From the NCBI RefSeq assembly GCF_016901035.1, contig NZ_JAFEUF010000042.1, forward strand, positions 1 through 33,235: a DNA stretch of 33,235 bases, given 5' to 3'. Positions 12,471 through 33,235 of the stretch are shown piece after piece. Every line of letters starts with the position of its first letter. The first letter of the stretch is position 1. A program made the translations under genes and the position numbers. The notes beneath the pieces were generated by a model. It made no database searches, was not told the origin of the DNA, and worked only from the letters and a program-made list of their open reading frames with translations. This DNA is from Streptomyces durocortorensis (GTDB lineage: Bacteria; Actinomycetota; Actinomycetes; Streptomycetales; Streptomycetaceae).

Positions 12471-12648
12471 GACGTGTGGCTCCTTGCGTCGAATGTGCGT
12501 GGGGATATGCGTAGGGGTACAAGCCAAAGCCTAGCCACCGCCGCACCCTCCGGCTGCTGATCAATGAGGTGGCGGAGCACCCCTGGCCATCGGGTATTGT
12601 TTCCTTCGTCGCCAAGGAGCTCACCACGAGATCCGACGCGTCGTTCGA

Positions 12649-12737: not shown

Positions 12738-12771
12738 GAAGCCCCCGACCGGTTCTCCGGGGGGGGGCTTC
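12738..12771 (+). terminator. Terminator hairpin after tRNA-Tyr
   Basis: GAAGCCCCCG at 12738-12747 pairs with GGGGGCTTC at 12763-12771, seven bases past the tRNA. The 9-G run in the right arm is at risk of sequencing-length error. Confidence 0.75.
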
Positions 12772-12847
12772 CTCGTTGTCCGGGGCATCCGGAGCAGTTG
12801 TCCGGAGCTGGTCGCGGGCCACCGGTCCGGCCGCCGCCCGCGAGGCC

Positions 12848-16677: not shown

Positions 16678-17235
16678 ATGGCAAGGATGAGTGCGGAGGA
16701 ACGGCGCGAGAGCGTCGTCCGGGCGGCGATCACCGAGTTCGCCCGCGGTGGTTACAACGGCACGTCCACCGAGGTGATCGCCCGGCGGGTCGGCGTCTCG
16801 CAGCCCTATCTCTTCCGGCTCTTCCCCAACAAGCAGGCGATTTTCATCGCCGCCGCCGAGCGTTGCCTGCAGGACACCCGCCAGGTCTTCGTAGTGGCCT
16901 CCGAGGGGCTGGAGGGGGAGGAGGCCCTGCACGCCATGGCCAGGGCGTACCAGCGGCTGATCGTCCACGACGGCGAGAAGCTGATGATGCAGATGCAGGT
17001 GTACGCGGCGGTCGCCGCGGCCGAGGCCTCCGGGGACCACGCCTTCGGGGCGTCCCTGCGGGCGGCCTGGGAGCGGATGTGGGACGACGTGCACCTGGTG
17101 CTCGGGGCCGATGTGAACGAGACGACGACGTTCCTGGCGTACGGGATGCTCGTCAACACCCTCGCCTCGCTGGGCTTCCCGGCCGAACACCGCGTCTGGA
17201 CCGGGTTCTACGACTCGGCCAGGCCCGTCGAGTGA
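16678..17235 (+). CDS. TetR family transcriptional regulator
   Basis: Repressor of 185 residues. The N-terminal helix-turn-helix runs ERRESVVRAAITEFARGGYNGTSTEVIARRVGVSQPYLFRLFPNKQAIFIAA (about residues 8-58), typical TetR with GVSQPYLFRLFPNK as recognition region; the rest is the variable ligand domain. It precedes a DHA2-type exporter and both start regions share a palindrome, so it most likely represses itself and the exporter until a compound binds. The ATG at 16678 lies right after the operator and has no Shine-Dalgarno, consistent with leaderless translation. Ligand unknown. Confidence 0.93.
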   Translation: MARMSAEERRESVVRAAITEFARGGYNGTSTEVIARRVGVSQPYLFRLFPNKQAIFIAAAERCLQDTRQVFVVASEGLEGEEALHAMARAYQRLIVHDGEKLMMQMQVYAAVAAAEASGDHAFGASLRAAWERMWDDVHLVLGADVNETTTFLAYGMLVNTLASLGFPAEHRVWTGFYDSARPVE

Positions 17236-17275
17236 ACAGCGCGTACCGGGTGCGCCCGGATTTCTGTCCGCAGAA

Positions 17276-17295
17276 GTTAGTCATCAATAACTAAC
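17276..17295 (+). promoter_or_regulatory. Palindromic operator before the MFS exporter
   Basis: GTTAGT-CATCAATA-ACTAAC, six-base arms with eight-base spacer, 14 bases before the exporter ATG. Read in reverse it aligns with the regulator's own operator through GTTATTGA..A.TAACTT. A close relative, GTTGGT-N8-ACTAAC, occurs at 20515-20534. Confidence 0.75.
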
Positions 17296-17309
17296 CAGCA
17301 GGGGGAGAC

Positions 17310-18776
17310 ATGTCAGCAGGGGGAGCAGTGGACGCACAGCACGGTACGGCCGGCCGCGGGGGAGCGGTCTGGGTCCTCGTCATCACCAGCGTCGCCGGAT
17401 TCATGGCGGCCCTCGACAATCTCGTCGTCACGACCGCCCTTCCCTCCATCCGCGAGAGCCTCGGCGGCGGCCTGGAGGAGCTGGAGTGGACGGTGAACGC
17501 GTACACCCTGACCTTCGCCGTGCTGCTGATGCTCGGGGCCGCGCTCGGGGACCGGTTCGGCAGACGGCGGCTGTTCATGGCCGGCCTCGCCGTCTTCACG
17601 GCCGCCTCAGCCGCGGCCGCCCTCTCCCCGGGCATCGAGGAGCTCATCGCCTTCCGGGCGGTCCAGGGCGTCGGCGCGGCGGTCATGATGCCGCTGACGC
17701 TCACCCTGATCGGCGCGGCCGTCCCGGCCGAGCGGCGCGGAGCGGCCCTGGGTGTCTTCGGCGCGGTCACCGGCGTGGCGGTCGCCAGCGGCCCGCTGAT
17801 CGGCGGCGCGCTCACCGAGCACATCTCCTGGCAGTGGATCTTCTGGCTGAACGTGCCCATCGGCCTGGTGCTGCTGCCGCTGGCCCGGCTGCGGCTCACG
17901 GAGTCGTACGCCCCGAAGGCGCCGCTGGACATCCGCGGCACGCTCCTAGTCGGCGCGGGCCTCTTCGGCATCGTCTACGCCCTGGTCAACACCGCGAGCC
18001 ACGGATGGGGAGACCCCGTCGTCGTGACCGGGCTGATCGCGGGCACGGCGCTGCTCGGGCTGTTCGTCCACCACGGCCTGCGGGCGCAGAACCCGATGCT
18101 GCCGATGCGGCTGTTCCGCAGCCGGGCCTTCCTCGGGATCAACGCCGCGAGCCTGCTGATGTTCCTCGGGATGTTCGGGTCGATCTTCCTGCTCAGCCAG
18201 TTCCTCCAGAACGGCCTCGGCCACTCGCCCACCGAGGCCGGGCTGCGGATGCTGCCCTGGACCGGGATGCCGATCCTCGTGGCGCCGCTCGCCGGGTACC
18301 TCTCCGACCGCTTCGGCGGCCGTCCGGTGGTGGCCACCGGGCTCGCCCTCCAGGCCGTCGGGCTCGCCCTGTTCGCCCTGATCATCGATCCCGGGGTGAG
18401 CTACCTCGCCCAGCTTCCCGCCCTGATCATCGGCGGCGTCGGCATGGCGATGTACTTCGCGCCCGCCGCGAGCCTGGTGCTCTCCAGCGTCCGGCCCGGC
18501 GAGCAGGGCATCGCCTCCGGGGCCAACAACGCGCTGCGGGAGGTCGGCGGGGCGCTCGGGGTCTCCGTCCTCGCCGCCGTCTTCGCCGCGCAGGGCGGCT
18601 ACGGCTCACCCCGGCTGTTCGCGGACGGAACGATGCCCGCCCTCTGGATCGGGGCCGGTGCGGTCGCCCTGGGCGCCCTCGTCGCGCTCCTGATCCCGGG
18701 CCGCCGAGCCGCCGGCCGCCCCGCCCCGGAGCCGGATGACCAGGGGGCGGCGGAGCCGGCGCCGGTGGCCGTCTGA
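17310..18776 (+). CDS. MFS drug exporter, DHA2 (EmrB/QacA) family
   Basis: Proton-coupled efflux pump of 488 residues with about 14 membrane helices. Visible motifs: LDNLVVTTALPSI in TM1 (motif D1), WTVNAYTLTFAVLLMLGAALGDRFGRRRLF (motif A), FRAVQGVGAAVMMP (motif B, with Arg), GVAVASGPLIGGALTEHISWQWIFWLNVPIG (motif C plus the DHA2 WRWIFxINVP-type signature), and YLSDRFGGRP in the second half. ATG follows AGGGGGAG. The upstream TetR and shared operators mark it as its target. Substrates cannot be told. The tail (last about 25 residues) is Pro/Ala/Glu-rich and cytoplasmic. Confidence 0.95.
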   Translation: MSAGGAVDAQHGTAGRGGAVWVLVITSVAGFMAALDNLVVTTALPSIRESLGGGLEELEWTVNAYTLTFAVLLMLGAALGDRFGRRRLFMAGLAVFTAASAAAALSPGIEELIAFRAVQGVGAAVMMPLTLTLIGAAVPAERRGAALGVFGAVTGVAVASGPLIGGALTEHISWQWIFWLNVPIGLVLLPLARLRLTESYAPKAPLDIRGTLLVGAGLFGIVYALVNTASHGWGDPVVVTGLIAGTALLGLFVHHGLRAQNPMLPMRLFRSRAFLGINAASLLMFLGMFGSIFLLSQFLQNGLGHSPTEAGLRMLPWTGMPILVAPLAGYLSDRFGGRPVVATGLALQAVGLALFALIIDPGVSYLAQLPALIIGGVGMAMYFAPAASLVLSSVRPGEQGIASGANNALREVGGALGVSVLAAVFAAQGGYGSPRLFADGTMPALWIGAGAVALGALVALLIPGRRAAGRPAPEPDDQGAAEPAPVAV

Positions 18777-18790
18777 GCCCCCGGACCCCG

Positions 18791-18839
18791 GAGTACGGTC
18801 CGTGGCCCCGCACGAGCGGCGGGGGCGCGGACCGTACTC
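18791..18839 (+). terminator. Long inverted repeat between the exporter and murB
   Basis: GAGTACGGTCCG at 18791-18802 pairs with CGGACCGTACTC at 18828-18839, and GCCCCG pairs further in. It is well placed to terminate the exporter transcript. Its right arm overlaps TACTCT at 18835-18840, the likely -10 of a leaderless murB message (GTG at 18848). Confidence 0.75.
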
Positions 18840-19835
18840 TTGTCCCCGTGCAGGACCGCCACGACCGATGCCGAGGTGATCGCCGCCGTCCGCGAGGCCG
18901 ACGCGAGCGGCACCCCGCTGCTCGTCATCGGCGGCGGCTCCAACCTGGTCATCGGGGACAAGGGCTTCGACGGCACCGCCCTGCGGATCGCCACGAAGGG
19001 CTTCGAGCTCTCCGGTACGTCACTGGAGCTGGCGGCCGGAGAGGTGTGGACCGACGCCGTTGCCCGGACCGTCGAGGCGGGCCTCGCGGGCATCGAGTGC
19101 CTGGCCGGTATCCCCGGATCCGCGGGCGCGACCCCCATCCAGAACGTCGGCGCGTACGGACAGGAGGTGTCCTCCACCATCACGGAGGTCGTCGCCTACG
19201 ACCGGCACACCCGGGAGACCGTGACGATTCCGAACACGGAGTGCGCGTTCTCGTACCGTCACAGTCGCTTCAAGGCCGAACCCGACCGGTTCGTGGTGCT
19301 GCGTGTCCGATTCGAGCTGGAAGAGGCGAGCGGGCTTTCCGCGCCCCTCAAGTACCCCGAAACGGCCAGGGCCATGGGCGTCGAGCAGGGCGACCGCGTC
19401 CCGCTGCCGGCCGCCCGCGAGACCGTGCTGCGGCTGCGGGCCGGCAAGGGCATGGTGCTGGACCCGGAGGACCACGACACCTGGTCGGCGGGGTCCTTCT
19501 TCACCAACCCGATCCTCGAACCGGCCGCGTTCGAGGACTTCCTCGGCCGGGTTCGCGAGCACCTCGGCCCGGACGTGACGCCCCCGGCCTTCCCTGCCGA
19601 GGACGGCCGCACGAAGACCTCGGCCGCCTGGCTGATCGACCGGGCCGGATTCACCAAGGGCTACGGCAGCGGCCCCGCCCGGATCTCCACCAAGCACACC
19701 CTCGCGCTCACCAACCGGGGCGCGGCCAGCACCGAGGACCTGCTCGCCCTGGCCCGCGAGGTCGTCGCCGGGGTGCACGCGGCCTTCGGCGTCACGCTGG
19801 TCAACGAGCCGGTGGCGGTCGGCGTCAGCCTCTGA
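18840..19835 (+). CDS. murB: UDP-N-acetylenolpyruvoylglucosamine reductase (MurB), 5' end damaged
   Basis: Flavin enzyme that makes UDP-MurNAc for peptidoglycan. Core motifs are intact: VIGGGSNLVIGDKGF (FAD), GIECLAGIPGSAGATPIQNVGAYGQE, FSYRHSRFK, AGSFFTNP (proton-donor Ser, S219 counted from TTG 18840) and LVNEPVAVG (Glu 323). But the start is broken. GTG at 18848 followed by CAG GA is the expected streptomycete start (V/M-Q-E), yet that frame is not MurB; the MurB frame opens only with a TTG at 18840 and reads SPCRTA before joining the family at ATTDAEV. The N-terminal segment with its TTFRLGG-like FAD motif, about 24 residues, is missing, fitting a deletion of 3n+2 bases (about 68). Either the assembly is faulty here or the gene is a truncation. 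Coordinates are those of the open frame. Confidence 0.85.
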   Translation: MSPCRTATTDAEVIAAVREADASGTPLLVIGGGSNLVIGDKGFDGTALRIATKGFELSGTSLELAAGEVWTDAVARTVEAGLAGIECLAGIPGSAGATPIQNVGAYGQEVSSTITEVVAYDRHTRETVTIPNTECAFSYRHSRFKAEPDRFVVLRVRFELEEASGLSAPLKYPETARAMGVEQGDRVPLPAARETVLRLRAGKGMVLDPEDHDTWSAGSFFTNPILEPAAFEDFLGRVREHLGPDVTPPAFPAEDGRTKTSAAWLIDRAGFTKGYGSGPARISTKHTLALTNRGAASTEDLLALAREVVAGVHAAFGVTLVNEPVAVGVSL

Positions 19836-33123: not shown

Positions 33124-33181
<58 letters not shown>

Positions 33182-33235
33182 GCTTCCTTCTTCACAGTGG
33201 TCTGGTCACTGTGGTCCTCGGCAGGTGGGCCGTGG

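Follow-up and report, generated by a model that had tools for sequence, protein, structure and literature searches.

In S. coelicolor, TANNNT is the -10 motif of promoters, 21% of the primary transcript starts give rise to leaderless messages, and AUG, present at 76.4% of the leaderless starts, is preferred over GUG, according to the parts of that study dealing with promoters and start codons (PMC4895711). The enzymatic step carried out by MurB is described in passages of a further report that hold no test of essentiality (PMC6736417). The present locus is a murB gene of a Streptomyces draft of 7.96 Mb, split into 616 contigs. It lies in the window, i.e. the whole stretch of DNA that was analysed, which comprises the first 33,235 of the 40,307 bases of contig C373. 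A stretch of murB is missing from the deposited letters, and this is most likely no feature of the organism. Gene names other than murB were read by eye from translations unless a match is given.

The murB locus in the draft

The ordinary murB start is followed by a gap of 68 bases (Table 1), which puts GTG 18848 outside the reading frame of the MurB body and leaves the protein about 23 N-terminal residues short. A GTG is found 84 bases before the codon homologous to position 18864 in each of 80 named Streptomyces relatives (the best-matching among 554 retrieved with the MurB body alone as query), compared with 16 bases here; the loss of about 68 bases, of the form 3n+2, that had been estimated originally is thus exactly 68. 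The dinucleotide GA is common to both edges of the absent stretch, whose position is ambiguous by at most two bases. The original prediction that GTG-CAG-GA at 18848 leads into a nonsense frame, and that the MurB frame begins only near ATTDAEV, was borne out: the former frame reads VQDRHDRCRGD..., unrelated to MurB, and homology begins at TATTDAEV, at about 18861. Upstream, the MurB frame is open as far as the stop codon (18774-18776) of the gene before it, which is in the same frame, and no homology was found in this part. The N-terminal LTTFRLGG-type segment of Streptomyces MurB was not found here; LTTFRLGGPA is absent from the murB frame, in agreement with the anticipated loss of a TTFRLGG-like segment.

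Table 1. Features of the murB locus and of the end of the window (positions in the window unless stated).
Feature	Position	Strand	Remarks
murB	18848-19835	+	68 bases absent after GTGCAGGA
GTGCAGGA, ordinary murB start, out of frame with MurB body	18848-18855	+	GTG in frame here in 80/80 relatives
Deletion junction, 68 bases absent	18853-18856	+	Present in all relatives inspected; 2-base GA ambiguity
MurB body, TATTDAEV... to stop	18861-19835	+	NF010478, MurB_C and FAD_binding_4 matches
Inverted repeat, 21 bp, one mismatch, 7-base loop	18790-18840		3' arm holds -10-like box
TACTCT, predicted -10 box of leaderless murB promoter	18835-18840	+	Fits TANNNT
TTG, alternative start proposed originally	18840-18842	+	Overlaps -10-like box, unlikely
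Poly-G (36) and poly-C (18) junk after rpoB	33126-33235 (contig 33126-33363)		Assembly artefact

Alignment with close relatives, as the original prediction had suggested, revealed the short start in none of the 80 named relatives and in none of 29 further loci, the best among 198 genomes with a match; the two sets overlap, since some loci come from the same genomes as the 80 relatives. LTTFRLGG is exact in 78 of the 80 and changed by one residue in two (L082 and L110), and an alignment of 22 relatives shows little or no variation at any position of LTTFRLGGPA. When the N-terminal 45 residues of an intact MurB served as query, matches were obtained in 386 of 391 other Streptomyces genomes, 385 of them at an E-value of 1.3e-10 or better and G374 at 1.0e-6. 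Because the present genome also matches (7.8e-5), in what can only be the part after the gap, a match alone is no proof of an intact start, and it is the strong E-values with this query that point to an intact start in the other genomes. The query gave no match in G001, G010, G050, G285 and G337 (5/391), two of which are less than 85% complete, and the MurB body is present in G010 despite this result. That this search did not clearly reveal the N-terminal segment in six of the 391 genomes counts against an artefact. A search of 392 genomes with the 19-base junction, one mismatch allowed, gave matches in 70, about as many as a backward-read control (a rough count). Apart from the present genome, the exact junction occurs in G302 and G250, at sites judged by eye not to be murB.

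The MurB body is 95-97% identical to those of S. parvus, S. globisporus, S. griseus and S. anulatus, and the contig and five relatives are collinear along most of 40 kb. Genes for a TetR-like regulator and an MFS-like transporter (named by eye) precede murB at 16678-18776; this stretch aligns through in G126, G115 and G127 and is missing at that place from G066 and G005, revealing a variable site beside murB. Small indels relative to four or five of the five relatives are located at 12508 (+13), 25284 (-1) and 27873 (+1), and they break nothing, as they fall between genes according to the reading frames seen.

Promoter, start codon and hairpin

A TANNNT box, followed by seven bases and GTG, is present in all 21 aligned upstream sequences (this one and those of 20 of the 80 relatives), in which CTTGTCCCCGTG is invariant. 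The spacer between TANNNT and GTG varies in more distant relatives. Because such a box, as expected of a leaderless mRNA, lies seven bases upstream of GTG 18848, murB is predicted from sequence to be transcribed as a leaderless message from the G of this codon. The start codon, however, is GTG and not AUG, which casts doubt on the leaderless reading. A literature search for leaderless murB in Streptomyces returned a sole match, which dealt with antibiotics in wastewater.

The long hairpin that had been noticed beside murB was confirmed, with a folding energy of -51.6 kcal/mol (z -5.56; none of 200 shuffles as stable). It ends 13-15 bases before the murB gap, and its arms are visible by eye in most of 20 aligned relatives (20 of the 80). 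The inverted repeat overlaps the predicted murB promoter and both arms are kept in many relatives, while in some distant ones (L030, L031) an inverted repeat of different sequence is found. It could serve to terminate the upstream gene or act as an operator.

The MurB protein and its copy number

The protein scored 478 bits against NF010478 (NCBIfam, UDP-N-acetylmuramate dehydrogenase; cut-off 231), with the match covering profile positions 38-362 of 362. Pfam FAD_binding_4 and MurB_C were both over their cut-offs, the former from profile position 7. The predicted activity is that of an FAD enzyme reducing UDP-GlcNAc-enolpyruvate to UDP-MurNAc with NADPH. Each of the 13 MurB sequences of known structure that were matched to the intact protein has an alignment starting at residue 4-9, so that the lost segment is covered in every case (three alignments were viewed residue by residue). 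The dN/dS of the MurB body was 0.10-0.22 against eight named relatives, the 28 pairwise comparisons between these relatives gave similar values (0.10-0.31), and 3 residues out of 323 occur in this sequence alone; the body thus bears no sign of decay and is under ordinary purifying selection. Structure models of the full and the short protein reached mean pLDDT values of 64.5 and 67.4, respectively, which is too poor to judge, probably because the alignments hold few, similar sequences.

A search of the genome for a second murB, which had been raised as a possibility, found none in the assembly: MurB_C matches once, at this locus, and among nine places with FAD_binding_4 just this one coincides with MurB_C. 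When the intact 5' segment of a relative, containing the absent stretch, was searched in the assembly, partial matches of at most 52 bases were obtained among the 40 candidates scored out of 304, with the best one 28 bases long (E 3.1e-4). The MurB step is essential and there is a single MurB_C gene, so the living strain should carry an intact murB.

Quality of the assembly

Overlapping G16 and C16 matches amount to 2360 and 2926 in this draft (5286 together), compared with 0-35 each in 11 relatives, seven of which have none. In 840 kb of its own sequence 97 G/C runs of at least 12 bases and 23 N gaps were counted, while none occur in 1.26 Mb of the relative G066. One junk tract follows rpoB at the end of the window. 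Between the rpoB stop (33119) and rpoC there are about 233 bases here, as against 27 in four relatives and about 100 in a fifth (G005), and the matching stretches of these five contain no N and no G/C run of at least nine bases. A 10-N gap begins one base past the end of the window, which seems to be cut there, and a tract similar to the rpoB-rpoC one is located at 37549 of the contig. The assembly is therefore faulty on evidence independent of murB, as expected of an artefact. The murB junction, in contrast, is clean, with no homopolymer or N, unlike the junk tracts, and this counts against an artefact.

Broken genes were also surveyed by aligning 129 G066 reading frames to the draft's own contigs (about 176 kb). 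Of these, 102 aligned whole in a single frame; among the 27 flagged ones, three were counted as real breaks, namely murB, a FAD-linked oxidase and an ABC ATPase. One flagged frame (gC_633474) was cut by the end of the compared stretch, and the remaining ones were put down, on inspection by eye, to divergence, shadow frames or starts extended too far. Nucleotide-level alignment covered seven places of the survey; 14 frames with a stop in the best match were checked around the stop only, some with a provisional verdict (e.g., gA_41965, stop at residue 336 of 725), and for gA_815, gA_6433, gA_10891, gA_12502 and gC_510424 the judgement was based solely on match coordinates or the protein text. 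A preceding run with fewer frames had flagged 11 of 66 frames with matches, with 14 more giving no match. The contigs surveyed were non-random, and some of the largest were poorly matched by G066.

The oxidase gene, identified by its FAD_binding_4 match, carries a clean 23-base frame-breaking gap at about 12747-12781 of G000:C4, the G066 counterpart having 962 residues; this gap is seen against that one relative and could be a real mutation. The ABC-type ATPase gene (named by eye; G000:C557, about 17979-18128) has lost its start, with poly-C and a 10-N gap in its place. Since three breaks in 129 frames come close to a number that pseudogenes might yield, the survey supports an artefact without proving it.

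Origin of the gap

We consider it highly probable that the 68-base gap in murB is an error of the draft and that the strain most likely has an ordinary full-length gene. According to this explanation, the stretch just past the very stable hairpin would have been poorly read, and the assembler or gap-filler would have joined both sides without the 68 bases. In the living strain murB would be transcribed from the TACTCT box with a leaderless start at GTG 18848, and the intact product would be the FAD enzyme making UDP-MurNAc from UDP-GlcNAc-enolpyruvate. Secondary structure together with GC-rich DNA is the likely cause of the lost piece, while the way in which poor coverage would have turned into a clean 68-base gap is one that we infer. 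Eight of the 37 junk clusters were mappable to G066; two of these, including the rpoB-rpoC tract, are located at exceptional hairpins (a stability reached by at most 0.25% of 400 random windows), and six are not. The hairpin at G066's own murB site is not exceptional. The link between the hairpin and the gap is therefore weak, and we offer it as a suggestion.

Three readings had been proposed originally, an assembly deletion, a start at TTG 18840 and a second murB; the deletion in the assembly is the best supported, the TTG start is disfavoured, and a second murB is not present in this assembly. There is also a small chance that the deletion is real and arose very recently in the sequenced culture, in which case MurB would be weak or made from an internal start, e.g., GTG 18876, and the cells might be a subclone surviving poorly or with a suppressor. 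A clean junction with two common bases is what slippage or end-joining deletions leave, and a recent event would not yet have touched the conserved body; these points have to be set against the single MurB_C gene for an essential step, the retention of LTTFRLGGPA in all relatives inspected and its place within the aligned part of the 13 structure-matched MurBs, and an assembly that is demonstrably faulty. It is very unlikely that the strain lives with a working murB devoid of the N-terminal FAD-domain segment and with its leaderless start out of frame, with frame slippage, or a start that is internal or non-leaderless, giving rise to the protein. If the deletion were true, it would mean that MurB can do without a segment kept by every relative inspected.

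An N-terminally reduced, working MurB starting from TTG 18840 (MSPCRTATTDAEV) is in our opinion extremely unlikely, even though this codon is in frame with the MurB body and the low-confidence model of the short protein places a strand at residues 4-7. The first T of TTG 18840 is also the final base of the TACTCT box, itself seven bases before GTG 18848, and the codon precedes the predicted transcript start, which makes it an improbable start codon; no Shine-Dalgarno-like sequence was seen by eye outside the hairpin, and the short start is shared by none of the relatives inspected (0/80 and 0/29). We give next to no credence to a second, intact murB outside the assembled part with the present copy decaying, considering that MurB_C matches once, that a single FAD_binding_4 place coincides with it, that the 5' segment of a relative finds the above short matches among the candidates scored, and that the body is free of decay.

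An error of the draft, our preferred explanation, also bears on how such sequences are used. A draft rated 100% complete with a contamination of 0.09 still contains broken genes and, within the 840 kb of it that were examined, 37 junk clusters. We thus believe that apparent gene loss in this draft should not be read as biology.

Comparison with known systems

Compared with Streptomyces MurB as defined by NF010478, the body of the present protein is alike, and the differing part consists of the roughly 23 N-terminal residues absent here. The upstream region resembles the leaderless mRNAs of S. coelicolor, as far as these are described in the relevant parts of that study (PMC4895711), in having a TANNNT box seven bases ahead of the start codon; the difference is that AUG is preferred there while GTG is found here, and that the leaderless state of murB is a prediction. 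With regard to the gap itself, a parallel is provided by the false gene losses that GC content causes in genome assemblies (PMC9516821). Although those cases concern vertebrate assemblies, and here the fault is one that we infer, in both a GC-rich stretch at the start of a gene is missing from a fragmented draft.
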